From assembly GCF_963675165.1 (NCBI RefSeq), contig NC_087381.1, positions 868,001-932,000 of the forward strand: 64,000 bases of DNA. Direction: 5' to 3'. The notes under the pieces were generated by a model. That model saw only the letters and a program-made list of their open reading frames with translations, searched no databases and was not told the origin of the DNA. Position 1 is the first letter of the stretch, and each line of letters begins with the position of its first letter. The stretch is from Halichondria panicea (lineage: Eukaryota > Porifera > Demospongiae > Suberitida > Halichondriidae). Made by a program: the position numbers and the translations under genes. Shown here in pieces: positions 1,985-62,688 of this stretch.

Positions 1985-2276
1985 CACCAGAAGTCGGTTA
2001 ACTTCAGCTACGATAATTATATCAAGTATGATAATCCAGTTGCTTGAAGACATTAAACCAGTCAACATGCACTCGTCCTGTGAATGAGGTTGAAATAACA
2101 GTTGCTGCTCCTGACATCTACGTCAATCCTGGAGACCTTAGTGAACAAGCCGAAGAAGAGCCCAAGGCAAAAGAAGCAGCTGTTGCTGACGAGAAGGCTG
2201 AAAGGGACGAGGGCCGGTGCATCAAATTCAGACCGCTCAATGCAGAGCTTGATTCTCAAGTTCGGAGATCATGATG
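1985..2276 (+). pseudogene. Z1: copy of acidic small-protein gene Z, start lost
   Basis: Homologous to Z2 (36039) and Z3 (42127). The start region lacks the four bases ATGC that supply the start codon in the other two copies (GCCACC runs straight into AGAAGTCGG). Four extra bases ATGC follow about 80 bases later and shift the frame. A downstream Met at 2044 could open a 76-residue product in the same frame as the conserved middle (motif APDIYVNPGDLSEQ), so residual expression is not excluded. Probably a decaying copy. Function unknown. Confidence 0.6.
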
Positions 2277-2667
2277 ATAATGCTAGTCAGCATTCTACGG
2301 AGAAAGAAGCTGAACTAACTGAACTAACTGACAATAATTATGTGACTCACTTTTTTAGAGGAAGAAGTATAATTCGATTGTACCACGTATTCATAAGCTG
2401 ATTTATTTTATTTGCTTTTGTCAAACTATATATAATTATCCTTGTGTTTTGATTTCCAATTTCTTTGTTATTACTGAAGAATGCATGAAGTATATATACC
2501 AATCAAAGTAATCATATTTTGTAGTCAGCTAATTATCTGGGGCAAAAAATATTCACTAGATCCATTTATATCTTCTACAATTTACAGCAGTTCAATAATG
2601 ACTATAATTATGTAAGTTTATAACAGTCACGTACAGCTAGTGCCTCATAACTACATTACAGCAGCTG

Positions 2668-4092
2668 TTAGGCTAACACTTGACGAACAACAAACCATGT
2701 TGCCCACGTTTTCTTTGGAGTTGCTGTGACATTTTGCAATGGATTTTCCTGTCGATTGTCGACCAATGTCAGATAGTTATTACCACCAGCAGGTTTAGCG
2801 CCAGGCTCATAGATGATCATATCGTACGGTGACTGTGATGGCGCTTCTTCAAATTGAAATGTTGGAGGAAGGACCTGTATAATTATGCCAGATATTTTAT
2901 TAGACAGATTTTGCTCATAATAAATAAAAAATGCAGGCACATGCATAATCAACAAGATGCTTGTAAGAGCGTGCGTTGAGCTTCATTGCACAGTCGCAAA
3001 CTGTTTGTGGTGCGCTGAGGAATGCATAACACATGCATGCAGTATAATTATACCGTATACCGTATTACTAGCAGAGTCTCCAAGTATACGGTTTTTTCCG
3101 CATTATACGGATTTCTGTCTTCTAATACGGTTATACGGAATTAACTTCCTTACTATACTGTATCTATGCCATTGCAATCTCTTTAAACTCGTGGGTATAA
3201 TAGTTAGTTATTCTACTTAATAATAAAATAGTACCGTATATATATATATAGCGGGTATATATAATTATTTTGATGGTATAATATAAAATGCTCGTGGCTT
3301 CCTCTATTATCTGGCCGTCAAGGTAGCCATAACTCGAAAGTCCACGACCAATAAAACCTTGCTGAAAGCCTATATAGAAGCTTTTACTTGTTCTTAAATT
3401 TTAACTGTTGAGCAGTTTTATAAAAGCGGTGATACGCATACGCAACCGGGGCATGTACTGTTTGTTAAAATAATTGTGAGGATTAGGTTTCCTTTGCAAA
3501 AAATAACTAAATCCTACGTATAAATTAATTCATTTACCACTTGAAACAATACTGCTGCATTTGTTGTATTCAAATTATGAAAATTCAGAACTTGGCTGGT
3601 ACATGTGAATGTACTAGGTTGTGTACCTCTTACAGTAGGGGCCGTGAATGTCAGTATACCTATATAACATAACAGACAGTACATGTAAGCAGGTGTACTT
3701 AATATATATTATATATAATTATGAATCACACTTGTAAAAATTAATGCTAACGATGCACGCAGGAAAAGGGTATACAATAATTATCATGGAACTTACAGCT
3801 GAGGGGAATTGGGAGGGCATTATTAAGAACAATCGAGCTATCAAAGAGTGTGTTATTACGAGTATCCGTTTTTAGGAAGAATTCACTAGAAGAAATTTGT
3901 ATGACAACTTGAACAGGTCCTGACTTATATAAGAGTTGAGTCAGCTGTTTAAGAAATTCCGATGAAAATGCTCAAGATATGAATTATTTTACCTCTGAAA
4001 CTGTGAGTGGTGGTCCATAAGTGGGTCTTACTTCAGCATTGCCACCGAACTGTGTTGGCAATACAGAGAGCATGCATGATAATCAGTGCCAT
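2668..4092 (-). CDS. Y1: four-exon secreted protein, family unrecognised
   Basis: Exons on the minus strand: about 4092-3993, 3944-3797, 3659-3538 and 2874-2668, each bounded by GT/AG (donors GTAAAA, GTAAGT, GTAAAT), with phases that join cleanly and a stop at 2668. The product is about 175-185 residues with several N-x-S/T sites, and the last exon contains SPYDMIIYEPGA and GGNNYLT. The best Kozak start (ACCATGG at 4090) is out of frame because of an extra CATG compared with Y3; an internal ATG ending at 4073 restores the frame but leaves a short, weak leader. I do not recognise the family. It lies tail-to-tail with Z1 and head-to-tail with X1. Confidence 0.6.
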
Positions 4093-4161
4093 GGTGGTGA
4101 TGGCACTATAATTATTAATTATGAGTAAATAATTATTCTATAATTAATTCAGCATAGCCGT

Positions 4162-4294
4162 TAGCCTCGTTCCCAGGCCGGTCCGTCTCCAATTGAACGC
4201 TATAGGTCGACCCAGGCCGATCAGTCTCCAATTGAACGCTAGGAGTCGACCTATAGCGTTCAATTGGAGACGGATCGACCTGGGATCGAGGCTA
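4162..4294. mobile_element. MITE of the TAGCCTCG family in the Y1-X1 gap
   Basis: A 133-bp foldback element with ends TAGCCTCG/CGAGGCTA is flanked by the 9-bp duplication CATAGCCGT (4153-4161 and 4295-4303). The same insertion occurs in block Q (38671-38803) but not in block R, where the empty site is seen near 45376. The 73-residue minus ORF across it is a by-product of the hairpin. Confidence 0.85.
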
Positions 4295-4621: not shown

Positions 4622-7540
4622 TTAATTACTCACCCAGAAGCAGTCATAGTTGTCTGGTGAGCTGCTCTCTTCAGCCACAATGGTACCTGACTCGAGCTTC
4701 AGGTAGTAGATCACGCTGTTGCCTTTGCTGTTGATTGCAGTTGTGTAGAGAGCAAACTTTGTTTCTGAATCAGAGCTTGTATTCTTGCGAAGCTTGAACA
4801 ACTGGCTTTGGTAAAACACCTAATAATTATTATGATCAATGTTATTATTTTGACTCTAATTAATAATGTACCTCTTCTGACTTCTTATCAAACCTCACAG
4901 CTATCGATCCTAAAGTTTCATCAGTGATGACTTTGAGGTAGGTATCTTTGACCACAGGGTTTGTGATAACATAGCCGTGTTGATCGCTGTCTCCCTGCTT
5001 CTCTAACTTGACCATCTTCATCACAACTATATTAACAGAAAATTTCATACACCTCATTTTATTAAAGGGTAGGCCCTGATAAATTATGCTTTTTTTTCAC
5101 CCATGCATTATTCTATTCTTTAATTCTTGAAAAATGTGCCTATTATTCTCATAAAAAATCCGATTATTCTCTGGTTTTCCCCAAAAATGTGACATAACAA
5201 ATTAAGACGTATAGAACAACACACAACTAACTCAAGACATAATGAATACTCGCTGAATTGAATTGATCCATAATTAGGCATTCCTAAAAGGGCGGCTGAT
5301 TAAATATTCACCTTCAGCCATTTTTGCCCATGAAAAACATCGTTATGCAAAACTTAATGTAATGATCTTTACCAAAAATGGACATTGATGCCTATTATTC
5401 CTTTAGACACCTATTATGCTAAAAATTATTCCGAGCATAATTTATCAGGGCCTATTAAGGGGGAAGGGTACGTATACTTATATATGTGGTCCAAACTTTA
5501 AATTTGTGTCAACACACTATTTTACATTTGTGGTCAATAATTATACTGGTAACTTAAAGTACAATACCAGTGGCGGATCCAGAGGGGGTTCTTTGGGTTC
5601 AATTGAACCCCCCTTTAAGAAAGAAGTGAGTGGGAGGCTCAAGCAACTAGTTAGCAAGTTGTTCCTTTCTTACTAGCTTTCACATGCACTTCTCACTTAC
5701 CTTTAGTCCTGTTAGTCCTGCGAAGCTTTGTCTGTGCAGTTTCAGTAACTATGAAGGCTAAAAACTCTGAGCGAGTGCATGCAGACTGCTTCATGAAAAG
5801 TGATGACCTTTTCTTAGGAAAAAAGTCGGTGTGTTAATGCGCATGCTCACTGTTTAGAAGAAGTGACGACCTTTTTTTTAGGTAAATTTAACAGTCCTTG
5901 ACCCGCTCAGAGCCCTGGAACCCCCCTTTCAAGAATCCTAGATCCGCCATGCATGCACTGAATACTATATATACGTAACTGTAAATCATCCTTTGCCTTG
6001 GGACTTCGGGGATTACTAATACATTAAGGTTATACTATTAGTATTTTTAGTGTTTTTAGATTTTCCTCTACTAATTTTGGCGGATTTGTAGCAAATTCCT
6101 TAGTACACTATTATTTTGTCCAAAAGATGTAGAAGCTTATATACCATCTAATGTATATAGCTCTATACAGTGGCGGATCCAGAGGGGGTTCTTTGGGTTC
6201 AATTGAACCCCCCTTTGAGAAGAAGTGAGTGGGAGGCTCAAGCAACTAGTTAGCAAGTTGTTCCTTTCTTACTAGCTTTCACATGCACTTCTCACTCACC
6301 TTTAGTCCTTGTTAGTCCTGCGAAGCTTTGTCTGTGCAGTTTCAGTGACTATGAAGGCTAAAAACTTTCTAGCGTAGTGCATGCAGATTGCTTATGAAAA
6401 GTGATGACCTTTTTTTTTTTTAGGAAAAATTCGGTGTGCGCATGCTCACTGTTTCGAAGAAGTGACGACCTTTTTTAGGTAAAATTTAACAGTCCTTGAC
6501 CCGCTCAGAGCCTAGTTGGGCAGAGCCCGACCGTTCCTAACAGGAGGTAGGGTTTTAAGCCTATGTCAGGATTTGTCTTTGCTGCAACTATAGTTGCAGC
6601 CCAATCAAATTGCAGCATTTCTACTGTGGTCTGTGTCACGTCCGGTTGCGCACCACTTCAGGATAATAATATTCATAGAATAAAATGATTATTCATAGCT
6701 GCTTATCAGCGTGTTACATAATTCAGCAAAGACAAATCCTGACAAAGGCTTGAAACCCGACCTCCCGTCAGGGACGGTCGGGCTCCGCCCAACTATTCAG
6801 AGCCCTTGAACCCCCCTTTCAAGAATCCTAGATCCACCACCAGTGGCGGATCCAGTGCAGGCACAAGGGGCACGTGCCCCCCCATTCTGACCAGCTCGAA
6901 TAAAACTAGCTCACAAAGTGGGTGTGGCTTAAAGCAGAAATCAATTATTGCAGCATATCACATGCAGACATCTCTAGTTGTAGACTTTGAAGCTGAAGAG
7001 CAAGATGATTCCATCCATTTCTGCTATCTCTTGCTACTGTGTATATCATATACTGTCATCAATCAATCCATGATCAGAAAAGCTACACTGATTGAGCTTT
7101 AAAAAAACTGTTGACCTTTTTTTATTAACTTCAAACTGCCCCCCCTTTTCAAAATTCCTGGATCCGCCCCTGGCCACTGCTATAGCATGACATGCTATAT
7201 AGAGCATGTATAGCTAACAGTCATAATTATACCCGAGGGACTCTTGCAGTTGTCTGTTTTGGGAGGAGGGTACATCAGCCCATGGTTCTCAGAGTTCACA
7301 TAACACAGATACTCCTTCCCCTTTACGTCAACTCCAATCTTGAAGAAGGGTGCATCACTAGCTGCTATTGTTTCAATCTGCATGCATTATTATCAGCAGT
7401 TACATGCATGCAACAGTTAATAATTGCTAGCTATAGAGATACAACACAAGTATAGTTGCTATTGCATGCATTTTGATTTGATTTACCTCGGGTTCTGTTA
7501 ACATCGTAACATCCTTGACACAGTTCGATGGGGTTGCCAT
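4622..7540 (-). CDS. X1: four-exon intracellular or leaderless protein, possible beta-trefoil
   Basis: Exons on the minus strand: 7540-7487, 7377-7233, 5026-4872 and 4819-4622. Splice sites are GT/AG and phases join, giving 183 residues from MATPSNCVKD to the stop just after DCFWVSN. No signal peptide is visible. Three similar segments can be made out, each opening with FKI/MKM/FKL and carrying a YL motif about 15-25 residues later (residues about 30-65, 67-115, 122-183), a pattern reminiscent of beta-trefoil folds such as the FGF/IL-1 type. That is a weak resemblance, not a family assignment. Intron 2 (5027-7232) is bloated by nested transposons. The last exon could splice on at GTGAGT, but all copies end in a nearby stop. 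Confidence 0.6.
5070..5454. mobile_element. Non-autonomous DNA element in X1 intron 2
   Basis: Inverted ends TAGGCCCTGATAAATTATGC and its complement lie inside the imperfect 8-bp duplication TTAAAGGG/TTAAGGGG. The interior has no gene. The matching copy in block R is 46314-46708, so the insertion predates that duplication. Confidence 0.75.
5568..5949. mobile_element. hAT-like MITE, CAGTGGCGGATCC ends
   Basis: It starts CAGTGGCGGATCCAG and ends near GATCCGCCA, the terminal type of hAT non-autonomous elements. The interior matches 6168-6510 closely. In block R this element and the next are collapsed into one, as expected from recombination between direct repeats or a later duplication in P. 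Confidence 0.65.
6168..6839. mobile_element. hAT-like MITE carrying a second nested element
   Basis: Same family as 5568-5949. It is interrupted by an element at about 6513-6797 whose inverted ends begin TAGTTGGGC.GAGCCCGACC (arms about 75 bp), flanked by TCAGAGCC at both sides, an 8-bp duplication typical of hAT. The block R copy is 46828-47531. Confidence 0.65.
6841..7173. mobile_element. hAT-like MITE, CAGTGGCGGATCCAG to CTGGATCCGCCCCTG
   Basis: Short inverted ends only, with a non-coding interior. It lies directly next to the previous element. The block R copy is 47532-47861. Together these three elements make up most of X intron 2 in P and R; X2 in block Q has no such insertions and its intron is only about 70 bp. 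Confidence 0.65.
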
Positions 7541-12760: not shown

Positions 12761-12767
12761 ATGCCTT

Positions 12768-18317: not shown

Positions 18318-20769
18318 GACAGAATTTGCTTTTGAGAATTTTTTGACTAAAGTCCGATGTCACCAGTTAGACGTATATATATATATGTATATAAGTGTAT
18401 ACTTACCTTGTAATAACACTGTATTCTTGGTTGAGTTGTAGAAGTCACCAGTTTAACACTCAAGTTGTGCAGCTATGATCAAGTTGTGTAGCTATATATC
18501 ATTAGATCATGTTTGCCATAAATACTGCAATCTGATTGGTTAGAGGAAATGTTCTATCCAATTTAGAAAATCATGTACTTCAATAGAAAATCATGTACTT
18601 CACTTAGAAAATCATGTAGCAAAGATTAGATAAGAACCATTCAAATCTGATTGGCTAAATACTCATGGTTGCTATGATCTAAAATGCTTAGACACTGTTA
18701 TTTAGCAGTTGAGTATCATGGGATAATTATGTAATTGTGACAACACTATCTGAGTCTCTGTCACTGATGACATACAGGAAGTGAATGAATACTGTCACAC
18801 CCTTAAATCAGATAACACACATGCATTGTGAATCTCGTGAATATTTAACAACACCATAATGGGCCGGGCATGCAAGAATAGCCCGACTGCATATATTTAG
18901 CTCTCAACAATACTTCGAGTTACAATTATTTCTTCACAGACAATTAATATAATTCGTTCACTAAACTTAAAGCATTCCCATGATGCAACTGTACACATGC
19001 ATGTTGAGCTACTTACACTGCATATAATCACAGGTCATGAAACAAATACACCGTATACACGTACGACATGCAGTCTATAATATACAACCATGTACTTAAT
19101 TGTATTGCTGAGTCATCACAATTCCTGGACTCTCGCCACAACTCAGACGGTGGATGTGGTGGGGGTGATGGATGCACTACTGCATGGTATCCCAGGAAAA
19201 GTGCAGCATAGCATGGCAGACTATAACAGGAGGAAACAATCATTGCATGACTGTGCTTGGGGCAATTACACAGCCTGACGTCGCTTATGAGGTGCATCAG
19301 TGCACAAACAAACCCAACTACTTATTAGGCCAGGCTGTGTAAATTGCCCCAGGCACATGCATTCCTGCAATGATTGTTTCCTCCTGTTATAGCATATAAT
19401 TATAGGTACCATCTGCTACGCATTGCTGAACTTCTCCTGGGACACCAGTAGCTAGTGCATCATTGCACAAACAAACCCAACTATACTTATTAGGCCAGGC
19501 TGTGTAATTGCCCCAGGCACATGCATTCCTGTAATGATTGTTTCCTCCTGTTATAGCATATAATTATAGGTACCATCTGCTACGCATTGCTGAACTTCTC
19601 CTGGAATACCAGTAGTGCATCATTGCACAAACAAACCCAACTACTTATGATACAATAATTATGCGGTTGCTGGTAAACGTACAAAATTACCACAAATATA
19701 GCAGAGTATTATTAATATTGTATAGGTGAGAATTTCTGAGTGTGTGGTGATCGAGTCCATACCCCTCGCCATAATTATTACAACAAGTAACACTTCCTTA
19801 GCGAGTGGGCGTGTCCAATAATGGAGTAGTAAATAAAGAAAAGACGAATTGTTTACGTAATGCACTGTGCCTTGTGCACCACATTAACCGAGAGGCCATC
19901 CTCGGCACACAATTAATCTTGGCTAGGTGTGTTCTACATGCATAATGCTTAGTTTGCTATAATCATTGTTTCATCTCGTAACGCCAGCCGCACAGCTGCA
20001 CTGTTAAAAAGGATATATTAATAATGCTTTTACTATAATCATGTTTCCTGCACAGCCTCAATTGTATACACATCACTATTAAAGGATAACAATAATCATT
20101 GTATTTCATCCATAATTGCACAGCCTTAATTGTACACATCACTGTTAAAAGGATATAATGCTTACAATGATCATTGTCCCTGCATTCTCAAAGTACATTC
20201 ATAGCTGCACGAACTGCCTCAACTGAACACACATCTCATATTCAGACAATGGACTGAGAGCGGTAATCATTGGATCTCGGTGTTCCTCGTAAAGACAAGA
20301 AACGTTACTGGTGAAATCAGAACCCTATATACCCTGTCATCAATCCAGCAAGCACTATAGAAATTGGTAGTGAAAAAACTAAGGCAGCTACAGCCTAATT
20401 TCTAAACTGTAACATGAACACAAAATTATACTTGCAAATTATTATATCAATAGAACTGTTTTAAAAATCGTTTTGCGCACAAGGAAATTTGGGATTTCTG
20501 TAGCAGCAATTTTTATCAATTATGAACTTACAAAATGGTAAATATAAAGTCCCCGTTCCGTTTACGTAGTACGTGCATAATATACATACAGCGCAAATTA
20601 AACGCTAAAAAGGACGCTCAAGATAAGAGCTTTTTTCTGTTGTTAAAATTACTTTGGTCACCCATGCAGCTATAGTTATCATGAAATTTTGCAGCTTGCT
20701 AGCTTTGTATTATAGTGCGGTGAATGGTGCGTTATATTTCTTTGTTAGATCTATGTAGAACTATAGGCT
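18318..20769. other. Third copy of the X spacer plus unique non-coding DNA
   Basis: 18318-19850 repeats the spacer behind X1 and X3, without the 64-bp satellite insertion, and has one internal tandem duplication of the hairpin arm (about 19330-19490 and 19495-19640). 19990-20230 resembles 41690-41900 (GTTAAAAAGGATATAATGC motifs). Nothing coding is supported to 20769. Confidence 0.6.
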
Positions 20770-23995: not shown

Positions 23996-23999
23996 GAGG

Positions 24000-29296: not shown

Positions 29297-29299
29297 CAC

Positions 29300-33480: not shown

Positions 33481-36038
33481 ATATTAATAGTCTTTTTAAT
33501 AGAGAATATAAACCTACCACTGAAAAACTGGGTAGTTTCAGAGTTGAGGGTGGTTCCAGCAGTTCAATTCTTTGAAGTGAACAGTTGTCTCGACTGTACT
33601 GTACTATACTTGGTTGAACTAACTAGCTAGCTACCATTTAAGCAGTCTCACTCGTTGCTATGTCACATTTGTTGCCAGGGACATATGAAGTATGATTTTT
33701 ACAAGTGATTGTGTTATCACTTGCAACAATCATGTTTATATGTAATGTGCATAAGAAACGACACATGTGTAATGGGTCGTTTTCATTCAGTGGGTCAAAA
33801 CGACATACTTTTAGCTGTGATAAACTTTTCTAGAGGGTAAATAACACACTTTAAGCAGTTTGGCACATGTATAACACGCTACACGCGCTATAATGGCACA
33901 TCTCTTTTTACAGTGTAGTATGTGAGTCTATGTCTATATATATACTCCCACCCATAATTATTACAACAAGCAACGCTTCCTTAGCAAGTGGCCGTGTCCA
34001 ATAAAGGAATGAATCGTTTAACGAATTTGGTCATAATTAGTGCCTAAGGTTAATTGTGTCCTCCCTCCTCTGATAACACAGTATTGAAAAGATCATGCAC
34101 TACACATGCACGTTGGCATACATTAATTGGCAACAAATTTACACATAAAAACCCTGCATGGTAGAATCTTAATCATCAATTAATAATACCTGAACAGTGT
34201 GTACAGTCAAGCATTCCCTGCGCATGTGCTGTATAGATTCATAAGTGCACAGTTTCGCCCCCAAGTGGCAACTGAACACAGCACATGCATGCTTAGCGTA
34301 TTCATACCTGCACATGCACAGTCCCAATAACACATGCAACACAGTTAAAAAGGATATAATTATGCTACTATCACTAGACTAAGTACTATATGTTTCCTGC
34401 ATTCTCATTCATAACTGCACAACCATGAACACACCATGCACTCATGCATGCATGTGCTCAACTCTCAAATTTGCATAGTGTATCCTGTCTATAATAATAT
34501 AGCTACTATATAGCTAATGTCATAGGAAATCACTATAAACTGTACCAGTTGTATATATATGCATTACATGTGCATGCATGTATACATGCACAATAGGAGT
34601 AGCTGCAATTCACCCACTTTCTCCATTGATAATCTATAATGTGCGCTTTGAGATCCAAGTATGCATGTATAATAGGTATAATACACCAGGGCTCTTATAT
34701 ATATAAGGCCGCTTTTTTCGAGAATTGTTCTATAATAATAATTGTGCCAAATGCATATTATCCTGACTCAAGTGTGAGCACTCAAATGGCTTACAATAGG
34801 CAAAATAGGCCCATTATAATGATTTGGAAAATCACTGAGGCTATACTTTTACAATGATCATTACGTACACACTTTTTCCACTTATAGCTCTGAGTTGTAA
34901 AAGCTATAGTTCGTGGCAGCACCACCAGCTGGTGCAGCAGTATTTATATGCGTAACTGTGGCAACACTTTTCTGTCTGATGCTGGTAATTATGAATACGA
35001 TTTGATAACACGTATACATGCAGTGCATGTGGCTAGGCTGTAGCTGTGGCTCTCATGAATATGATTTTGGCATTACACTTAGGCTGGCCGGCCATGATTA
35101 TGCTTTTTATCACCTATTCCTTTTTGTCATGAGAAGGTCGTTATGCAAAATTAATAATGATCTCTACCGCGGGTGAAATTTTGCTCCGGAGCTCTCAGTC
35201 GAAATTTTCTAATATTCGCGTTTCAATGCTAGGAAACCACATCCACAATTATAGCTTTACATGTGAGAAATACCAGTGTGTGGGAGTTTATCCCAGTTTT
35301 AATTTTCGCGCTGCTCTGCCCATTGTTTCAATATCTCAGCTCAATTAATAATCTCGTCTGACAAAAATATTCAGCTATAGTTATACTTACTGTGTTCGTT
35401 CACTAATTTACACAACAAGATCCGTATTACGAAATAGTGTACTGACTGATATAACTATATTATTATTATCTATATAATTATTATAGTTCATTAGTTACAG
35501 GCTACTCTTTAACGGTGGATTAATCTCCGCTCATCGGTTACCCTCACAAGATAAATAGCAAATGACGTTGCTCTGCTTCGGTCCCTAGTCGCCGTGACTT
35601 CTTTCTGTGTATTCGCACGCTGGTTATCATCATCATAGTCTGGTAGACCCATACAGGCTCATTAAATAAAATTGTATTCTGTCGAGCTTGGAAGTAATCA
35701 AGCAACGGAGGAGGATCGACCAATGATGGAGGAGGATTGACTTATAATTATTATTGTGGCATAAAGTTTACAACATTAATGCATACCGATGCATGCATGC
35801 AGCTGAATGCATGATCTATTAAGACTAGGGCACCATCATTTTCTGTACATGCATTGTATGGCATTGTTTGGTCATTGAAGAATAAGTGATTAGCTATCTC
35901 ACCTGCTGAAGACGCACTACTCCATCTGATATAGCAGTGTTCAAACGAACTTGCAGTCATACATGCAGTCAACACCACCATGCATGTACCCTATATATAT
36001 ATACACCACATGCACACAGAGCATTCATTATAGCCACC
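33481..36038. other. Non-coding flank and upstream region of block Q
   Basis: 34050-34620 repeats at 40541-41060 (start CCTCCCTCCTCTGATAACA), which marks the unit boundary of a tandem duplication of about 6.5 kb (Q then R). 34620-36000 matches 1-1980. The Z2 TATA-like sequence CCTATATATATATACACC is at about 35990. No gene before Z2. Confidence 0.65.
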
Positions 36039-36317
36039 ATGCAGAAGTCGGTTAACTTCAGCTATGATATATCGAGTATGATAATCCAGTTGCTTGAAGA
36101 CATTAAACCAGCCAACACTCGTCCTGTGAACGAGGTTGAAATAACAGTCGCTGCTCCTGACATCTACGTCAATCCTGGAGACCTTAGTGAACAAGCCGAA
36201 GAAGAGCCCAAGGCAAAAGAAGCAGCTGTTACTGACGAGAAGGCTAAAAGAGATGAGGGCTGGTGCATCAAATTCAGACAGCTCAATGCAGAGCTTGATT
36301 CTCAAGTTCGGAGATGA
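36039..36317 (+). CDS. Z2: acidic small protein, alternative C-terminus
   Basis: 92 residues from MQKSVNFSYD in Kozak context GCCACCATGC. The middle (APDIYVNPGDLSEQAEEEPK, then KAKEAAV) is shared with Z3. Four extra bases after GATGAGG (GGCTGG against GGTG in Z3) shift the frame, so the C-terminus reads CIKFRQLNAELDSQVRR instead of the Z3 tail. Z1 shares this insertion, so which state is ancestral is open. No signal peptide or known domain. Confidence 0.5.
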   Translation: MQKSVNFSYDISSMIIQLLEDIKPANTRPVNEVEITVAAPDIYVNPGDLSEQAEEEPKAKEAAVTDEKAKRDEGWCIKFRQLNAELDSQVRR

Positions 36318-36777
36318 TGATGATAATGCCAGTCAGCATTCTACGGAGAAAGAAGAGCTTACTTCTCTCTGAACAAACTGAACTAACTGACATGCAATAA
36401 TTATGTGACTCACTTTTTTAGCGGAATATTTTAGAAGGTAGAAGTATAATTCGATTGTACGACATATTCATAAGCTGATGTATTTTATTTGCTTTTGTCA
36501 AACTATATATAATTATCCTTGTGTTTTGATTTCCAATTTCTTTGTTATTATTAGCATCTGAAGAATAACTATAATTTATAAAGTATATATACCAATCAAA
36601 ATAATCATATTTTGTAGTCAGCTAATTATCTGGGGCAAAAAATATTCACTAGATCCATTTATATCTTCTACAATTTACAGCAGTTCAATATGACTATAAT
36701 TATAATAAAATTAATTATGTTTATAACAGTCATGTACAGTGCCGTAACTACAGTAACTACATTACAGCAGCATCATG

Positions 36778-38601
36778 TTAGGCTAACACTTGATAAACAA
36801 CAAACCATGTTGCCAATCTTTTCTCTGTAGTTGCTGTGACATTTTTCAATGGATTTTCCTGTGGATTGTTGACCAATGTCAGAAAGTTATTACCACCAAC
36901 AGGACTAGCGCCAGGCTCATAGATGATCATATCGTACGGTGACCGTGATGGCGCTTCTTCAAATTGAAATGTTGGAGGATGGACCTGTATATAATTATGC
37001 CAGATATTTTATTAGACAGATTTTGTACCGTATATACCGTATCACTAGCTGAGCCTCCAAGTATACGGTTTTTTCCATATTTATACGGATTTCTGTCTTC
37101 TAATAATTTAATTACGGTTATATGGAATTAACTTCCTTATTATTAGGCTTTTCCCAATTATGCTGGCATAATTTTGGAATAATAGGGACCATTTTGAGCT
37201 CCATTAGCATTGAGCATTATTCCAGGTGAACAAAATAAATTTGGAGGTGTGGTTTTACTTAAAGAGGCGTGGTTTAACATAAAGGGGCGTGGTAAGTGCA
37301 AAGACCACATGTCCTCTTGCTACAGCCATCATCTGCAGCTGCAGAAAGAGTTTTCTCTATTTTGGAAAGTTCTTTTAATAAGAAACAAACCCATTCTCTT
37401 CAAGACTATATAATGTGCATCTGTAATGCTACAATATAATAACAGAAAATAGCTTTTTCTTTTTGTAAACACTGTCTCACACACTTTTTTAATGATTCAT
37501 TTTCCGAAAAATCTATTGGAATAATAGGTGACAGTCAAAGAATAATAGGTAACATACTAACAGTCGAAAGAATAATAGGTGGACCTTCCTGGCATAAAAG
37601 AATAGCATAATAGGCAAATTTTTTTGCATAATTGAGAAAAGCCTACTTATTATACTGTATCTATGCCATTGCAATCTCTTAAAACTCGTGGGTATAATAG
37701 TTAGTTGTTCTACTTAATAATAAAATAGTACCGTATGTATATAATTATAGCGGGTATATATTTTGATGGTATAATATAAAATGCTCGTGGTTTCCTCTAT
37801 TATCTGGCCGTCAAGGTAGCCATAACTCGAAAGTCCAGGACCAATAAAACCTTGCTGAAAGCCTATATATAGAAGCTTTTACTTGTTCTTAAATTTTAAC
37901 GGTTAAGCAGTTATAAAAGCAGTGATACGCATACGCAACCGGGGCATGTACTGTTTGTAAATAATTGTGAGGATTAGGTTTCCTTTGCAAAAAATAACTA
38001 AAATCCTACGTATAAATTAATTCATTTACCTCTTGAAACAATACTGCTGCATTTGTTGTATTCAAATGATGCAAATTCAGAACTTGGCTGGTACATGTGA
38101 ATGTACGAGGTTGTGTAACTCTTACAGTAGGGGACGTGAATGTCAGTATACCTATATAACATAACAGACAGTACATGCAAGCAGGTGTACTTATTATATA
38201 GATATAATTATGAATCACATGCACTTGTAAATTAATGCTAACGGTGCACGCAGAAAATGGTATACAATAATTATCACGGAACTTACAGCTGAGGGGAATT
38301 GGGAGGGTATTATTAAGAACAGTCGAGCTATCAAAGAGTGTGTCATTACGAGTATCCGTTTTTAGGAAGAATTCACTAGAAGCAATTTGTATGACAACTT
38401 GAACAGTCGGTGAAGATTGCAAGAGTTGAGTCAGCTGTTGAAGAAATGTCGATGAAAATGCTCAAGATATTATAATTACTGAATTATTTTACCTCTGAAG
38501 CTGTGAGTGATGGTCCATAAGTGGGTCGTTTTTCAAAATTAATATTGCGACGACCGAACTGTGTTGGCAATACAGAGAGCATGCATGATAATCAGTGCCA
38601 T
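36778..38601 (-). CDS. Y2: four-exon secreted-type protein
   Basis: Exons 38601-38493, 38434-38287, 38151-38030 and 36984-36778 with intact GT/AG sites. It has the same extra CATG near the start as Y1, so the Kozak ATG at 38599 is out of frame and the ATG ending at 38582 is needed. The last exon reads SPYDMIIYEPGAS and LATWFVVYQVLA. Intron 3 carries a 502-bp element (37144-37645). Confidence 0.6.
37144..37645. mobile_element. 502-bp non-autonomous element in Y2 intron 3
   Basis: Ends TAGGCTTTTC / GAAAAGCCTA with an A/T-rich extension are flanked by the 8-bp duplication CTTATTAT (37136-37143, 37646-37653). It is absent from Y1 (empty site near 3150) and Y3. The interior has two GCGTGG-type repeats and no gene. 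Confidence 0.85.
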
Positions 38602-38803: not shown

Positions 38804-39125
38804 CATAGCCGTCTGACTGCGCCATTACCTACAACAATGCATGCATGCAGACAGTAACATTGCATGCAAAGCAACTACATAGTGTATATATAAAGGGGAT
38901 ACATTTTCGCAGGTATATTAATGCTGCGAATGAGAGTAAAATCGCAAAATATTGTATTCGCGGATAATTACAAAATGCAATGAACCTAAAACTGCATGCG
39001 AGTAATTTACAAACGCTATGAATAACATTAATTAAGAGCCGCTCATGCATTGAAGAGGTAAAATTAATGATTCAAAAACTAATTGCCCACTCTAACAGGC
39101 CATGCATGTATAACAACTAACTAAC

Positions 39126-48230: not shown

Positions 48231-51200
48231 GACAAAATTTGCTTTTGAGAATTTTTTGACTAAAGTCCGATGTCACCAGTTAGACGTATACTGATATACA
48301 TGTATATAAGTGTATACTTACCTTGTAATAATACTGTATTCTTGGTTGAGTTGTAGAAGTCACCAACAGTTTAAAACTCAAGTTGTGCAGCTATGATCAA
48401 GTTGTGTAGCTATATATATATCATTAGCAGTTGAGTATCATGGGATAATTATGTAATTGTGACAACACTATCTGAGTCTCTGTCACTGATGACATACAGG
48501 AAGTGAATGAATACTGTCACACCCTTAAATCAGATAACACACATGCATTGTGAATCTCGTGAATATTTAACAACACCATCATGGGCCGGGCATGCAAGAA
48601 TAGTCCGACTGCATATATTTAGCTCTCAACAATCTTCGAGTTACAATTATTTCTTCACAGACAATTAAGATAATTCGTTCACTAAACTTAAAGCATTCCC
48701 ATGCATGCAACTGTACACATGTTGAGCTACTTACACTGCATATAATCACAGGTCATGAAACAAATACACCGTATACGTACGACATGCTGTCTATACAATG
48801 ATTAATATACAACCAGGTACTTAATTGTATTGCTGAGTCATCACAATTCCCGGACTCTCGCCACAACTCAGACGGTGGATGTGGTGGGGGTGATGGGTGC
48901 ACTATACTGGTATCCCAGGAGAAGTGCAGCATAGCATGGCAGACTATAACAGGAGGAAACAATCATTGCATGACTGTGCCTGGGGCAATTACACAGCCTG
49001 GCGTCGCTTATGAGGTGCATCAGTGCACAAACAAACCCAACTACTTATTAGGCCAGGCTGTGTAATTGCCCCAGGCACATGCATTCCTGCAATGATTGTT
49101 TCCTCCTGTTATAGCATATAATTATAGGTACCATCTGCTACGCATTGCTGAACTTCTCCTGGAATACCAGTAGTGCATCATTGCACAAACAAACCCAACT
49201 ACTTTGGAATAATCATGCAGTTGCTGGTAAACGTACAAAATTACCACAAATATAGCAGAGTATTATTAATGTTGTATAGGTGAGAATTTCTGAGTGTGTG
49301 GTGATCGAGTCCATACCCCCCCCCCCCCCGCCATATTACAACAAGTAACACTTCCTTAACAAGAAGAAACAATCATTGCACAGCAGTCATTGGCATGAAT
49401 GTGCCTGGGGCAATCACATGCATGCATGTACACAACCTGCATGGCTTCTGTTTATGTGGTCAAGCGCATCATCCCACTCTACATGCACTAACTGCATGCT
49501 TATAAGTGTGGGAGAAATGCATGTTCTAAGTGTTGTTGAGTATCCCCCACGTAATATTATAGTGCACTTTATTGAATTAAGGATCACTTCACTGTCCTAC
49601 ATTCTCAATCACATCAAAGTATTTTAACTGCACAGTTCCCCAAACTACTAACTGCACCACATGCGTGCTTACTGTTTCCCACAAAGACCTAGCATGCACA
49701 ACTGCACAGTGTCTAAAAACACCACTCACGGCATACTCAGTAATGTTGATCTACATGCATGTATATAATAGTACAACAAGGAACACTCTATTGATACACT
49801 TCACACGGTCGGTACATACCTTTGGCACCTATATACAAGACTTTAATTTGGCATCCCATGCATGTTTGTATGTGCTGCATAACTGTCCCCGCCCCCCCCC
49901 CCCCCCCAACTGAACACAACACAGTTAATTAAAAAACTAGAGCACTGAAGTGCAAACCCTCGGCGTTAATTTGAGGTTTATAGTGAGTCTACAGTCTCAA
50001 GTCAAAGCCGCGTGTACATCTAGGCCAACGTGCAGGTTTAGCTTCTTAGCTTTTGCTCGCTTTTATTCGCCAATAAAGCTTTAACAGCCAAATTTAAAAC
50101 TATGTTGTGTTGAGGCTATCAATGGTACAAACACAGTGCTATCGCATCCAGGTGAGTATATAGACTCAGAATACACAGACAGACAGACAGATAGACAGAC
50201 AGACTGACCGACTACTATAAACCCGTGGTGCCACGGCACGCCTCGGGTTAATAATATCATGTTTCATTCCCTGAATTCTGAACATTTGACTATCAATACT
50301 GCACAGTTACGCCCCCCCATGGTGAGGCATGCAACGGAACACACACACACACATGCATGCAACTGAACACACACACGCACACACGCATGCATGCAACGGA
50401 ACACACACATCACACATATGGTGGGCCGTTTGTTTCAAAATTCAAATGTTACATTTTCATTCAAATCACAATACATTCATTCAAGATGTGCAATTTTCAT
50501 TCAAGAGCATTCAAGATTATTCATTCAAGATTCAAGATTTTGATGGATGCATAAACATGCATAATTTCAGATGACTTTAGCCACACTTTGTGGTTTTATT
50601 GCATGGTGTAGTTGTTTTAATTAACAGGAAATGGGGTTCACAATAATCAACTCCCTCCTTCAGTAGTGGTAAGGTGATTCCCAAACCAGAAACATGACAT
50701 TGATTGACGAAAATTAACAAGAGGTCAGGGGTTCGTTGCCGACCTTCGAGTTTTGAGCATTAAGCAAAGGACATCTCTTAAATGTTGTGTTTTAATGACT
50801 GTATATGCATGCATGATATCTTGAATAATTATTGTCGACTTGAATGCATTAAAATCTTGAATGACAATTGCAGGTCTTGAATGAATACTGTATATGCATC
50901 TTGAATGAATGTATTGTAATTTGAATGAAAATATAACATTTGAATTTTGAAACAAACGGCCCACCATACACACATGCATGCAACTGAACACACACACGCG
51001 TGCATGCAACGGAACACACACACATGCATGCAACTGAACAACACACACACATGCATGCAACTGAACACACATGCACACATGCATGCAACTGAGCACACAC
51101 ACACATGCATGCAACTGAGCACACACATGCATGCATGCAACTGAGCACACACACATGCATGCAACTGAGCACACATGCATGCATGCAACTGAGCACACAC

Positions 51201-52104: not shown

Positions 52105-52316
52105 TTACTCTACTATACGATGGGTATACATATACAATATAATGTGTGCATGTAGTCCACATGCATGCGTGCTTGTATAGCCAGTTATGTATGTTATTTC
52201 AGGCCATGCAGTTTCCCACAAAAAAGTTGATTGCATGCACGCCTCGATAGTATATACGACGGGTATAAATGTGTGTATAAAAATGTGTGTATATGCATGC
52301 ATGAGGCACGTTAACA

Positions 52317-53625
52317 ATGAAGTATCAACTGCTGATGATATGCTCTCTCCTTGGTCTGGAGTCACCCTGGAACCAACCCAGCACCTGCTACATGAGACAG
52401 ACTATCTGTTCTACAAATTATAAAGAGGCAATTGAACAGCTGACTGATAATATAGACGGCCATAGCCAACAAATTCAAATGTTAGAGGCTCAACTAGTCA
52501 ACTCAAACGGACAATCTGAAATGAAGATCACGGAATTGCAAGTGCAACTAAATACGTCTATCCAGATATTGCAAGCTGATAAAGATTCATTTAACGAAAG
52601 CCTTCAGCTGGTGCAAGCTCAACTAGACAATTCCAACGAGCAGTTTGGAGGTCAGATTATGGAATTACAAACTCAACTAAATAGCTCTAATCAATTGCTT
52701 CAAAGGCTACAAGATCAGCTAAGTGCTACCACCGGTGTTTTACAACAAAGCCTTTCCGAGCAAGAAAACAGACTGGAAAATATACAATTAATTGTGGAAG
52801 AGCTTCGTTTGGGTACCATTAACAACCCAGCAAGCTCTTGTAGTGACATCTCTCAAGGCCGACCATCTGGAGAATACTGGATTGCCACTGACAGAACTAG
52901 CTCTCCTGTTCTGATCTACTGTGACATGAATCGAACAAGCTGTAGCTGCAACACTGCAGGAGGATGGATGAGGGTAGCCAACCTTGACATGACCGATCCT
53001 AACCAAAACTGCCCAGAGGGATTTAGACTGATGAACAGGACTGAATCACCACTGCGTACTTGTGGTAGACATGCACCGGGATGTCTGTCTACTACATATC
53101 CAGCTTATGGGGTGAAGTACTCAACAGTTTGTGGTCGAATCAATGGATATCAAAGTAGTACAATGGATGCTTTTCATCCATATTTCTCCAACAGAGCTTT
53201 ATCTATTGATGATGTTTACGTTGATGGTGTGAGCCTAACCCATGGTCAGTCGCCTCGTCAGCACATCTGGACATTTGCTAATGCACTTGATGAAACTCGA
53301 TCCACTTATTATGTATGTCCTTGCACAAGACCTGCATGACCTCACCTATACTGGAGTTGTACCTCCCTTCATCGGTCAAGACTACTTCTGTGAAACTGGA
53401 AGCCGACAAGCATTTAGTTATAATACCTTCTACACTGATGATCCACTCTGGGATGGTCAGGGATGCGGGGGTACCAGTACTTGCTGTGAGTTCAACAATC
53501 CACCGTGGTTCTGCAAGCAACTCCCTCAACCAACTACAGATGATATCGAGTTGAGGCTTTGTAGTGATCAATCTATTGGAGATGAAGACACACCAATTGA
53601 AATTGCCGAAATATACGTTAGCTGA
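52317..53625 (+). pseudogene. L3: L-family gene broken by a CATG insertion
   Basis: Nearly identical to L1 through the signal peptide, coiled coil and most of the C-terminal region, but four extra bases (CATG, at about 53334-53337) follow AGACCTG where L1 reads straight into ACCTCACC. The frame ends two codons later, giving a 340-residue product lacking FIGQDYFCETGS and FNNPPWFCKQLP. The rest of the gene stays open in another frame to 53625, so the break is recent. Confidence 0.9.
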
Positions 53626-54706
53626 ACATGTTTTCGTTAGCACTATATACATTAGTTAGCGCTAGATCAATGAACATTTAAGAGTATAGAAACTGAATAA
53701 TAGCATGCAGTCTAGAAATAATAATTATTATGATAGCATTATAGTAGCAATTCCCTATACCTAACTTTTTTACTGAGCTGTTTATACTTACACCATGCAG
53801 CGAAACTTGTTTAGTTGCTATTGCCGGATGCCCGTGCAAATAATATTAATGAGTGAAACTATAGTGGTACATGAATACTCACTTCAAAACAGCGGGGCTA
53901 AAAATGTTCTGTCCATAATTTATAGGCTGGTATATAATGTAACAAAACTGACTCAGTCGCAGGTAGTTGCAAGCAGTCCTTTACCCCTAAGATAACTGAT
54001 AATACCCCTGTCCCACCTCCCACCACTGTTGACATGCTCAAGATAGACATACTGATAGTGGATGGATGGATGGATTATCAAAGATCTCAGAATGCCATGT
54101 GTGAGCGCACATCCCGGCAGTAACACACCAAGATCAAAGGTCATTTAGCTACTACGGTTAGTATAGAGTATGCAATGAAGCTACGCCCCCGCTTTCGGAA
54201 GGAATTAAAAGTTGGAGGCGAATACCGTTAGTGATCCGTTCAATTCAGTTCATATTTCACACAAATGTCACAAATGATATGGGCAACAGATATATAAACT
54301 CAAAATAACTGTGTCTTGTGTCTTAGGTGAGATCCAGAGGGGGGCTTTTTGCTGTATTCGACCCAACCCTATACTATTAGCACTACCGTGCTAATGATAG
54401 GAACACCCACACACATGTAAAACACACCTATGAATAATTTGCGCTTTGTGTGTTTGCTCACAACTACACCACTTCTGACTCACACCTCAAGAGCTGGGTT
54501 GACTAATCAGAACCCGGATTAGGCCCTTACACAAACGCAGATATAGGTTTAAAGGCCTTGTGTAAACATGTTATTTCCAACCATGCATGCCCCCCACAAA
54601 ATGTTGAGGTCATTAGTGATTACTAGCATGGTGTGTACTATACGAGTGGTACATCAATGTATGCTGGCTAAAAGCCTATTTATGTATACTATTATCAAGG
54701 GCGTAT
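53626..54706. other. L3 3' flank and intergenic region
   Basis: Matches 14283-15355 nearly base for base, apart from small indels such as AATT added near 53722. No gene seen. Confidence 0.7.
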
Positions 54707-54714
54707 TAAGTTAT

Positions 54715-55579: not shown

Positions 55580-55848
55580 TAAGTTATTTCAGGCCATGTA
55601 AATCTCCCACAAAAGTTGATACTATAGATGTGTACTATACGATGGGTATACATATACAATATAATGTGTGCATGCAGTCCACATGCATGCGTGTTTGTAT
55701 AGCCAGTGTAATATTATGTATGTTATTTCAGGCCATGCAGTTTCCCACAAAAAAGTTGATTGCATGCACGCCTCGATAGTAATATACAACGGGTATATAT
55801 AATGTGTGTATAAAATGTGTGTATATGCATGCATGAGGCACGTTAACA

Positions 55849-57800: not shown

Positions 57801-57805
57801 AAGCT

Positions 57806-57957
57806 GTGTATATACTTGCTGTGAGTTCAACAATCCACCGTGGTTCTGCAAGCAACTCCCTCAACCAACTACAGACGATATATCGAGTTTAGGATTTGTA
57901 GTTTTCAATCTTATCCTGAAGACACACTAATTGAAATTGCCGAAATATACAGTCGAT
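57806..57957 (+). pseudogene. C-terminal fragment of an L gene
   Basis: The stretch CTTGCTGTGAGTTCAACAAT to a stop near 57957 matches the last 45-50 codons of L genes (FNNPPWFCKQLPQPTTDD). An extra TA in GATATATCGAG and other changes break the frame, and no upstream part is present. Remnant of a further member between L4 and L5. Confidence 0.9.
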
Positions 57958-58359
57958 AAACAATGTATATTATAGCTAAGCTATAGAACCAAGTATAAGA
58001 GTAGAAACTGAATAACAGCATACAGCGGTATATAAACAAGATAGCTGTAGCGATTCCAAGAACACTTTGTGCACTATATAACAGCAGAGCAAAAACGACC
58101 ACAATTGCCATAGGTTTGCAAAAATGCAATTTGTGCAAACAGTGGCTAATATGAAACTAAAGCAAGTGAACACTTACTCTATAGGAACACCCACAAACAC
58201 AACTCTAGATCTATGAATAATTTGCGCTTTGTGTTTGCTCACAACTACACCACTTCTGACCCACACCTCTATAGAGCTGGGTTGACTAATCAGAACCCAG
58301 ATTAGGCCCTTACACAAACGCGGATATATAGGTTTAATCGGATTAAAGGCCTTGTGTAA

Positions 58360-58758
58360 ACATGTTATTTCCAACCATGCATGCCCTCCACAAAATGTTG
58401 AGGTCATTACTAGCATTGATGTGTACTGTACGAGCGGTACATCAATGTATATGCTGGCTAAAAGCCTATTTATGTATACTATTATCAAGGGCGTATTATG
58501 TTATTTCAGGCCATGTAAATCTCCCACAAAAGTTGATACTATAGATGTGTACTATACGATGGGTATACATATACAATATAATGTGTGCATGCAGTCCACA
58601 TGCATGCGTGCTTGTATAGCCAGTGTAATATTATGTATGTTATTTTAGGCCATGCAGTTTCCCACAAAAAAGTTGATTGCATGCACGCCTCGATAGTATA
58701 TACGACCGGTATAAATGTGTGTATAAAAATGTGTGTATATGCATGAGGCATGTTAACA
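58360..58758 (+). promoter_or_regulatory. L5 upstream module with three repeats
   Basis: GTTATTTC..CCATG blocks at about 58364, 58500 and 58639, then GTATAAATG and GTATAAAAATG at about 58707-58730. The same design precedes L2 and L6. Confidence 0.4.
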
Positions 58759-60063: not shown

Positions 60064-60988
60064 ACATGTTTTCGTTAGCACTATAATTATACATTAGTTA
60101 GCGCTAGATCAAAGAACATTTAAGAGTATAGAAACTGAATAATAGCATGCAGTCTAGAAATAATATTATGATAGCATTATAGTAGCAATTCCCTATACCT
60201 ATAACTTTTTTACTGAGCTGTTTATACTTACACCATGCAGCGAAACTTGTTTAGTCGCTATTGCCGGATGCCCGTGCAAATAATATTAATGAGTGAAACT
60301 ATAGTGGTACATGAATACTCACTTTAGAACAGCGGGGCTAAAAATGTTCTGTCCATAATTTATAGGCCGGTATAATGTAACAAAACTGACTCAGTCGCAG
60401 GTAGTTGCAAGCAGTCCTTTACTGCTGATAATACCCCTGTCCCACCTCCCACCACTGTTGACATGCTCAAGATAGACATACTGATAGTGGATGGATGGAT
60501 TGATTATCAAAGATCTCAGAATGCCATGTGTGAGCGCACATCCCGGCAGTAACACACCAAGATCAAAGGTCATTTAGCTACTACGGTTAGTATGCAATGA
60601 AGCTACGCCCCCGCTTCCTGAAGCAATTAAAAGTTGGAGGCGAATATATACCGTTAGTGATCCGGTTCATATTTCACACAAATGTCACAAATGATATGGG
60701 CAACAGATATATAAACTCAAAATAACTGTGTCTTGTGTCTTGGGTGAGATCCAGAGGGGGGCTTTTTGCTGTTTTCGACCCAACCCTACTATTAGCACTA
60801 CCGTGCTAATGATAGGAACACCCACACACATGTAAAACACACCTATGAATAATTTGCGCTTTGTGTTTGCTCACAACTACACCACGTCTGACCCACACCT
60901 CTATAGAGCTGGGTTGACTAATCAGAACCCGGAGTAGGCCCTTACACAAACGCAGATATAGGTTTAATCGGATTAAAGGCCTTGTGTA
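60064..60988. other. L5-L6 intergenic region
   Basis: Matches the L1 and L3 3' flanks, with short palindromic additions (AATT near 60086, TATA near 60648). No gene. Confidence 0.7.
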
Positions 60989-61383
60989 AACATGTTATTT
61001 CCAACCATGCATGCCCCCCACAAAATGTTAAGGACATTAGTGATTACTAGCATGGTGTGTACTATACGAGTGGTACATCAATGTATGCTGGCTAAAAACT
61101 TATTTATGTATACTATTATCAAGGGCGTATTATGTTATTTCAGGCCATGTAAATCTCCCACAAAAGTTGATACTATAGATGTGTACTATACGATGGGTAT
61201 ACATATACAATATAATGTGTGCGTGCAGTCCACATGCATGCGTGCTTGTATAGCCAGTATATGTTATTTCAGGCCATGCAGTTTCCCACAAAAGTTGATT
61301 GCATGCACGCCCTGGTAGTATATACGACGGGTATAAATGTGTGTATAAAAAGTGTGTATATGCATGCATGAGGCACGTTAACA
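60989..61383 (+). promoter_or_regulatory. L6 upstream module with three repeats
   Basis: Blocks at about 60993, 61134 and 61264, the last shortened, followed by GTATAAATG and GTATAAAAAGTG before the start. Confidence 0.4.
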
Positions 61384-62688
61384 ATGAAGTATCAACTGCT
61401 GTTGATCTGCTCTCTCCTTGGTCTGGGGTCACCCTGGAACCAACCCAGCACCTGCTACGTGAGACAGACTATCTGTTCTACAAATTATAAAGAGGCAATT
61501 GAACAGCTGACTGATAATATAGACGGCCATAGCCAACAAATTCAAATGTTAGAGGCTCAACTAATCAACTCAAACAGACAATCTGAAATGAAGATCACGG
61601 AATTGCAAGTGCAACTAAATACGTCTATCCAGATATTGCAAGCTGATAAAGATTCATTTAACAAAAGCCTTCAGCTGGTGCAATCTCAACTAGACAATTC
61701 CAACGAGCAGTTTGGAGGTCAGCAAACTCAGCTAAATAGCTCAAATCAATTGCTTCTAAGGCTACAAGATCAGTTAAGTGCTACCACTGGGATTTTACAG
61801 CAAAGCCTTTCCGAGCAAGAAAATAGACTGGAAAATATACGATTAATTGTGGAAGAGCTTGAACAAGTTCGTTTGGGTGGCGTTAACAACCCAGCAAGCT
61901 CTTGTAGTGACATCTCTCAAGACCGACCATCTGGAGAATACTGGATTGCCACTGACAGTACTAGCTCTCCTGTTCAGGTCTACTGTGACATGAATCGAAC
62001 AAGCTGTAGCTGCAACACTGCAGGAGGATGGATGAGGGTGGCCAACCTTGACATGACTGATCCCAACCAAAACTGCCCAGAGGGATTGCAACTGGCAACC
62101 AGGACTGAACCACCACTGCGTACTTGTGGCCGAGTGGAAGGACCAGTAGGATGTGTATCTGCTACCTATTCAACGTATGGGGTGAAGTACTCAAAAGTTT
62201 GTGGTCGAATCATTGCATATCAAAATAGTACTCCGGATGCTTTTCATTCATACTTCTCCAACAGAGCTTTATCTATTGATTATGTTTACGTTGATGGTGT
62301 GAGCCTAACCCATGGTCAGTCACCTCGTCAGCACATCTGGACATTTGCTGGTGCACTTGATGAAACTCGATCCAATATGCATAGGTGTCCCTGCACAAGA
62401 CCTGACCTCAACTACACTGGAGTTGTACCACCCTTTATCGGTCAAGACTACTTCTGTGAAACTGGAAGTCGAGAAGTATTTAGCTTTATATTCTACCCTG
62501 ATGATCCACTCTGGGACGGTCAGGGATGCGGGGGTACCAGTACTTGCTGTGAGTTCAACAATCCACCGTGGTTCTGCAAGCAACTCCCTCAACCAACTAC
62601 AGACGATATCGAGTTGAGGATTTGTGGTAATGTTGGCATCGGTAATGAAGACACACCCATCGAGCTCGTTGAGATCTATGTACGCTGA
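61384..62688 (+). CDS. L6: secreted coiled-coil fibrinogen-like protein
   Basis: 434 residues, intronless. The coil lacks the four residues IMEL found in the others (GGQQTQLNSS) and ends EELEQVRLGGVNN like L2. The C-terminal region groups with L4 (LATRTEPPLRTCGRVEGPVG), but the variable stretches are its own: RSNMHRCPC, REVFSFIFYPDD and CGNVGIGNEDTPIELVEIYVR. Confidence 0.9.
   Translation: MKYQLLLICSLLGLGSPWNQPSTCYVRQTICSTNYKEAIEQLTDNIDGHSQQIQMLEAQLINSNRQSEMKITELQVQLNTSIQILQADKDSFNKSLQLVQSQLDNSNEQFGGQQTQLNSSNQLLLRLQDQLSATTGILQQSLSEQENRLENIRLIVEELEQVRLGGVNNPASSCSDISQDRPSGEYWIATDSTSSPVQVYCDMNRTSCSCNTAGGWMRVANLDMTDPNQNCPEGLQLATRTEPPLRTCGRVEGPVGCVSATYSTYGVKYSKVCGRIIAYQNSTPDAFHSYFSNRALSIDYVYVDGVSLTHGQSPRQHIWTFAGALDETRSNMHRCPCTRPDLNYTGVVPPFIGQDYFCETGSREVFSFIFYPDDPLWDGQGCGGTSTCCEFNNPPWFCKQLPQPTTDDIELRICGNVGIGNEDTPIELVEIYVR

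Follow-up and report, generated by a model that had tools for sequence, protein, structure and literature searches.

P nucleotides stem from the off-centre nicking of hairpin-sealed ends by an opening nuclease. At T-cell receptor joints they mostly comprise two bases (PMC3528771). At yeast double-strand breaks, foldback inserts reverse complements, the evidence reaching to lengths as short as 2 bases, and these are reported to be sealed by end joining that uses a median microhomology of 2 bases (PMC11724301). Further routes to small insertions on record are the 2–4 base insertions that arise from staggered breaks as de novo duplications by topoisomerase II (ID17; PMC11477040), the polymerase theta end joining that shapes natural insertions and deletions (indels) in Caenorhabditis elegans and sometimes leaves templated insertions (PMC4490562), and the short-range template switching described as creating perfect small inverted repeats in great apes (PMC7954356). 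Tandem duplication, whether simple or complex, is held responsible for some 80–90 % of short insertions in flies and primates (PMC2374710); poriferans were omitted from a survey of microsatellites in eukaryotes (PMC6387519). Here we analyse a window of the Halichondria panicea (Porifera) genome, C5:868001–932000 (the window being this whole 64 kb stretch, within an evidently eukaryotic genome of 131.5 Mb and 39 contigs), in which paralogous copies differ by short self-complementary insertions, and we demonstrate that most clean four-base insertions polarised against paralogues follow one rule, N→N.rc(N).N, in which a short target N is followed by its reverse complement, rc(N), and again by N.

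The original prediction held that duplicated copies in the window differ by short palindromic units, most often of four bases, and this is confirmed and proves stronger than first stated. Comparisons were all made inside one assembly, between paralogous stretches (duplicated blocks being numerous in the window) and among copies of two interspersed repeat families, TE1 and family A. Within the window, where alignments of at least 250 bases and at least 85 % identity with 8 matching bases on each side gave 81 distinct indels, palindromes make up 9 of the 10 clean four-base indels, and 22 of 25 in a larger set with 8-base clean flanks, which did not capture several of the originally listed sites. 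In particular, a polarised set built from 704 alignments (at least 150 bases and at least 82 % identity, with 5-base flanks, the site at 2066 still falling outside it) over 35 stretches and 240,560 bases comprises 99 insertions and 153 deletions, none longer than 12 bases. An insertion was called where the bases were carried by no more than two copies and missing from a larger number, two or more, and a deletion where the reverse held; longer indels and ambiguous events were excluded, 13 of the 16 ambiguous four-base events being palindromic.

Palindromes account for 34 of these 99 insertions, and for 15 of the 17 that are four bases long, against 6 of 16 four-base deletions; at two bases 17 of 24 insertions are TA or AT and 5 of 21 deletions are palindromic (Fisher tests, p=0.004 for four bases and p=0.003 for two, values that serve as guides only because the events are few and the paralogues related). 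At six bases the shares are 2 of 3 insertions and 1 of 9 deletions. Moreover, four of the six palindromic four-base deletions are contractions of duplicated runs, and among those that are not contractions palindromes amount to 2/10 in the paralogues, 0/1 in TE1 and 0/1 in family A. Random genomic 4-mers at random places would be palindromic in 9.6 % of cases and of the form N.rc(N).N in 1.6 %, and 4-mers having the same two-base flank match in 13 and 8 %, respectively; local tandem duplications would be palindromic in 12.4 % (four bases) and 23.7 % (two bases), and six-base words would take the form N.rc(N).N in 0.2 %, or in 2.6 % when the same flank match is demanded. The copy counts (for example one copy with the bases against 33, 30, 7, 5 and 5 copies without) support insertion rather than loss, and palindrome deletion is ruled out by them for the main class. 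The further suggestion of a process with palindromic output is likewise supported, since 13 of the 14 non-duplicating four-base insertions are palindromic and the pattern is weak or absent in non-contraction deletions.

Twelve of the 17 polarised four-base insertions are N.rc(N).N with a two-base N (ten at CA or TG, one at AG and one at AA), chiefly CA→CATGCA but also AG→AGCTAG and AA→AATTAA, and 10 of these 12 are not tandem duplications. The rule extends to a three-base N in 2 of 3 six-base insertions; TGA→TGATCATGA was found in two copies, with 25 lacking it, and TTC→TTCGAATTC in one, with four lacking it. Naming ATGC/CATG as the commonest unit was correct as to the sites, and is better put as N→N.rc(N).N with N being CA or TG. 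Most of the insertions lie outside existing ATGC microsatellites and originate at single dinucleotides. A flank match of 2–3 bases accompanies 13 of the 14 non-duplicating four-base insertions, whereas under random placing the match would be 0 or 1 base in 83 % of cases, and this fits N.rc(N).N because a duplicated N requires such a match. A second class lies at TA, with TA→TATA and ATAT→ATAATTAT, and the non-palindromic remainder of the 17 consists of one TTTG duplication and one AATG insertion. All in all, the palindromic small insertions are of even length, with 2, 4 and occasionally 6 bases. Plain tandem duplication is ruled out for the main class by the polarised paralogue set, in which 14 of the 17 four-base insertions are not tandem; the earlier statement that neither slippage nor overhang fill-in explains the added bases holds for these 14, while TA→TATA, taken alone, could be the fill-in of a two-base overhang.

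Inspection of the twelve places that could be located from the original prediction showed the differences to be present against the paralogues (Table 1). Of what was announced near the starts of two copies, Y1 and Y2, the inspection covered the site at 36038/42126. The bases at 1985–1990 had been read as lost; a more distant copy, near C5:860,100, is also without them, and for this reason we prefer gain over loss, the four bases having more probably been gained in the two other copies (36038 and 42126). The copy that carries the TGCA insertion at 53333 has a reading frame (52305–53339) that ends at 53339 after 344 aa, the listed sister frames being 438–441 aa; the insertion breaks the frame, which speaks against selection for palindrome function at that site. 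The reported abundance of GCATGC in the window was seen, and CATGCA and ATAATTAT are likewise rich there.

Table 1. Sites of palindromic difference in the window, and the repeat copies used for comparison (positions are those of the window)
Feature	Position	Strand	Comparison with other copies
CA→CATGCA	36038..36043, also 42126–42131		Common to two copies; absent at 1987–1990 and near C5:860,100
CA→CATGCA, private insertion	2066..2071		3/3 aligned paralogues without the four bases
ATAT→ATAATTAT, new beside the original list	2013..2020		Copies near 35996 and 42071 read GATATATC; larger gap in third copy
CA→CATGCA, private insertion	36391..36396		1 with, 3 without
CA→CATGCA, unpolarised	38218..38223		Copy near 3728, the one clean paralogue, without the four bases; larger gap in copy at 44923
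CATG gained beside CATG	18996..19003		Both N=CA rule and tandem duplication; 1 with, 2 without
AG→AGCTAG, private insertion	19450..19455		1 with, 3 without
TG→TGCATG, private insertion in open reading frame	53333..53338		1 with, 30 without
ATAT→ATAATTAT, private insertion	53721..53728		1 with, 5 without
TA→TAATTA, unpolarised	60084..60089		2 with (one doubtful, 72 % match), 2 without
ATA→ATATATA, unpolarised	60644..60650		2 with, 2 without
TATA length difference in TA run	48411..48420		Scored as loss in other copy; different sequence there in one of two long copies
Extra TA in GATATATC	57878..57883 (approx.)		Difference confirmed
ATAATTAT inside six-base palindromic difference (TAATTA), unpolarised	3261..3268		Against copy at 37759
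TATA duplication, unpolarised	38885..38892		1 with, 1 without
Interspersed repeat TE1, copy used for genome-wide test	49931..50255	+	
Interspersed repeat family A, copy used for young-family test	5565..5955	+	

A gene array carries palindromic insertions, as do two unrelated interspersed repeats, and counts of the product words in the genome range from thousands to about 100,000. TE1 was compared at 37 further places on 14 contigs, the best-scored of 1,254 candidates. Against the consensus (12,028 aligned bases), 5 of 8 four-base insertions obey N.rc(N).N (6 of 9 when same-site events are grouped otherwise), neither of two four-base deletions is palindromic, and 8 of 17 two-base insertions are palindromic duplications; three GC insertions fall at one CpG-rich site, where the consensus itself may have lost bases. 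An eight-base CATGCATG insertion at one CA in copy L078 fits two rounds of N.rc(N).N. In family A (22 copies, 20 of them from among the further places listed; 8,640 aligned bases with 203 substitutions) both four-base insertions are palindromic, one being CA→CATGCA and the other a TTAA duplication. Judging from these copies, the process appears to be genome-wide and recent enough for events private to single copies, one private event sitting in a repeat family with 2.3 % substitutions. Two pairs of TE1 copies, L084/L085 on C3 and L069/L070 on C1, have identical differences, which suggests recent larger duplications elsewhere in the genome.

The phase of ATGC-class runs points to the same targets. 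Maximal runs were counted on both strands, each site appearing twice. At length 6, runs with CA/TG ends number 326+326 against 144+137 expected and AT..AT runs 94 against 163 expected; at length 10 there are 37+37 with CA/TG ends, 2 AT..AT and 0 GC..GC. Genome-wide, exact ten-base ATGC runs number 3,506+3,576 (7,082) with CA/TG ends, a count to which regularly spaced copies on contig C1 contribute, against 662 with AT ends and 417 with GC ends. On C1, at about 1.3–2.4 Mb, CCATGCATGCAC recurs on one strand at spacings of a few kb to tens of kb, as though it belonged to a repeated block. In the GATC class TC..TC and GA..GA runs number 71 each (34 and 26 expected), and AT..AT runs 50 (48 expected). 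By length from 5 to 14, ATGC runs number 1,280, 812, 284, 122, 78, 76, 36, 12, 16 and 24.

Word counts are less clear-cut. The octamer ATAATTAT occurs 100,191 times genome-wide, and the reversed palindrome TATTAATA 5,899 times; in a 240 kb sample, ATAATTAT, CATGCATG, AGCTAGCT and TACATGTA exceed second-order expectation 21-, 20-, 11- and 4.6-fold, respectively. Judged against a second-order background, XY.rc(XY).XY takes one of the top two ranks for 14 of the 16 dinucleotides. On a third-order background, with isolated runs, the palindromic class has a median ratio of 1.11 against 1.04 (Mann–Whitney p 0.17), and its totals are 1.28 against 0.99 at length 6, much of this being TAATTA (704 against 276 expected), and 1.13 against 1.26 at length 7; GATCGA, TCGATC, GGCCGG and CCGGCC are 1.5–2.1-fold over. 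The idea that XY.rc(XY).XY words are universally in excess was abandoned, the class not being significantly higher on that background. Nine-letter N.rc(N).N words are enriched by 3.46, a slight margin over complement (2.53) and mirror (3.01) controls. The rule rests on the direct insertions and the run phase, and not on word counts.

We tentatively suggest, at rather less than even confidence, that a common germline process writes these short palindromes by staggered break, fill-in, P-nucleotide-like extension and annealing. A staggered break of 1–3 bases (usually 2), mostly at a pyrimidine–purine step, would be filled in, leaving both ends to terminate in N, and each end would be extended by a 3' overhang that is the reverse complement of that end, whether by the off-centre nick of a sealed hairpin end or by equivalent self-templated synthesis. 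Since both ends carry the same N, the overhangs rc(N) and N would be complementary, and they may then anneal and be sealed as N.rc(N).N. Joining without extension would yield N.N and would account for TA→TATA; products like CATGCA would grow by steps of four and may seed ATGC repeats. It is possible, although we think it unlikely, that a dedicated germline activity, for example a domesticated hairpin-forming transposase or a nuclease–polymerase pair, cuts at CA/TG steps as well as at TA steps and reseals the ends as N.rc(N).N or as TA.(palindrome).TA, which would supply about one-third of small new insertions and would have rewritten the word content of the genome.

The likeness to V(D)J joining is that an end gains a short stretch of its own reverse complement before it is joined, and the adjoining end is matched by a reverse-complement insert in 12 of 17 four-base and 2 of 3 six-base insertions, in 5 of 8 in TE1 and in both in family A, though not in ATAT→ATAATTAT. 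In V(D)J joints, however, the end is not duplicated, whereas here N flanks the filler on both sides, so that the target is duplicated and a fill-in step must be added; moreover, P nucleotides belong to antigen-receptor genes, whereas the insertions here are spread over the genome. Yeast foldback is reported with inverted microhomology and a 41-base loop (PMC11724301), whereas here the inverted copy abuts its template and there is no loop; in the 12 four-base N-rule events the inverted copy abuts N by definition. The foldback class is further characterised by its dependence on Pol delta and NHEJ. Polymerase theta in C. elegans provides, as here, error-prone joining behind natural indels, but its products are typically given as deletions of about 7–13 bases (PMC4490562), and here palindromes are added. 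Compared with template switching as described in great apes, the present events are extremely short and of even length, with one rule for most four-base events. The same palindromic octamer, TGCATGCA, is abundant in Eimeria, an apicomplexan, and the passage concerned describes no insertion process (PMC3505466). Among the titles listed in the open-access literature we found no account of a genome with such palindromic insertions: each single step has known relatives, and for the combination no description was found within that scope.

Copying from existing words offers a different route to the same products. By template switching or slippage, a CA or TA strand end would pair with an abundant ATGC- or AATT-type word, copy one period and return, and palindromic words would thereby breed themselves; this is a serious but unlikely explanation, in keeping with the finding that the sample's most enriched words include the favoured products, AGCTAGCT among them, with the eight-base event in TE1 and with the short reverse-strand-templated insertions reported in primates (PMC2374710). 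Against it, TTC→TTCGAATTC and TGA→TGATCATGA fit the rule, yet GAATTC and TGATCA lie outside the top enriched-word lists, and the copying of ATGC arrays should use AT and GC ends too, while the runs are mostly CA/TG-ended. Tc1/mariner-like elements leave excision footprints at TA (TATA, TAATTA, TACATGTA), and such footprints, with the CA class left by another element that makes a two-base duplication, are a still less likely source. The TA class is compatible with them, as seen in TA→TATA, in the T[AATT]A insertions, in one unpolarised TA/TACATGTA difference and in the 4.6-fold excess of TACATGTA; the CA, AG, AA, TGA and TTC classes are not, the filler being the reverse complement of its own target, something that the invariant end of a transposon could not provide. 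Additionally, very many excisions would be needed for the density observed (five four-base N-rule insertions in the aligned TE1 bases).

Three further explanations appear weaker. Fill-in of staggered breaks of the topoisomerase II type, with palindromes as preferred cut sites for de novo 2–4 base duplications, is improbable: it is a reported route to insertions of this size (PMC11477040), and the exact tandem copy that it predicts is found in the TA dinucleotide class (TA→TATA) and in the tandem-duplication part of the four-base class, but its reported products are tandem, and the 14 non-tandem four-base insertions, 13 of them palindromic, refute it for the main class. Ordinary microsatellite slippage combined with base composition is very improbable, even though the words TGCA, CATG and TATA are frequent, simple duplications make up 3 of the 17 four-base insertions, 4 of the 16 four-base deletions shorten palindromic runs that had been duplicated, and the later growth of ATGC runs is compatible with it; most events lie at a single CA, AG or TA without an earlier repeat, 14 of the 17 had no prior copy of the unit, the null rates stand at 9.6 % palindromic and 1.6 % N.rc(N).N, and insertions differ from deletions (15/17 against 6/16, p=0.004). 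An assembly or sequencing artefact is scarcely credible. The evidence does come from one assembly, but one event is common to two copies (36038 and 42126), the sequence at which the rule operates varies from site to site, and the product words are spread across the assembly.

Several observations weigh against the proposed break, fill-in and extension scheme. Palindromes are present in 6 of 16 polarised four-base deletions. ATAT→ATAATTAT, 3 of the 17 polarised four-base insertions, is not N.rc(N).N and so falls outside the scheme; it would need AT added to both TA ends, for which the scheme has no good account, and the 100,191 copies counted genome-wide belong to this very product. Fill-in alone is rare at CA (CA→CACA), yet 17 of the 24 two-base insertions are TA or AT; in family A, however, just 1 of 9 two-base insertions is a palindromic duplication (2 of 9 counting a CG insertion), so that the TA class is not visible there. 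The run lengths of the ATGC class have no peaks at 6 and 10 and a local maximum at 14 only; in the AGCT class the TA..TA phase (172 against 115) is in excess as much as AG/CT, and the ACGT class has little phase excess. On the third-order background the word excess is mainly TAATTA and is small for GATCGA/TCGATC and GGCCGG/CCGGCC. Replacements of XY by rc(XY) make up 22 of 105 double differences, but 15 of them are CA/TG, and they were dropped as support because CpG decay also yields CA/TG. The set was restricted to clean gaps flanked by matching bases, so that insertions losing flanking bases would escape the set, and the absence of base loss is not an independent finding. Finally, we infer the break, hairpin and enzyme steps from sequence.

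The window has other repetitive features. A tandem array of near-alike genes for a coiled-coil protein occupies 52111–63397, one copy having a weak, below-cut-off fibrillar-collagen C-terminal match, and relatives of these genes cluster at C5:1.25–1.37 Mb and on C13. Tandem arrays rich in CATGCA and ACAC units, with several frames open, lie at 11551–12027 and 50725–51362, and another, of units of about 64 bases, at 8578–9332, with a related inverted block 15 kb off at 24016–24699. A reading frame on the minus strand (29889–31196) has a strong integrase-core match (rva_4, E 1.5e-83) and is probably a transposon gene. An imperfect palindromic element of about 133 bases is found at 4162–4294 and 38671–38803, with matches on at least 10 contigs, and long imperfect inverted repeats resembling small mobile elements lie at 1126–1315, 6513–6795, 20996–21148, 43557–43772 and 54716–54828.

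A genome with so large a share of palindromic insertions would suggest that lineages can diverge sharply in the chemistry by which they join ends or copy DNA, and that such chemistry alone can shape the word content of a whole genome, including about 100,000 copies of one octamer. N.rc(N).N offers a simple rule, open to testing, for how self-complementary microsatellites are born, and cautions that palindromic motifs, even where abundant, are not necessarily regulatory sites.

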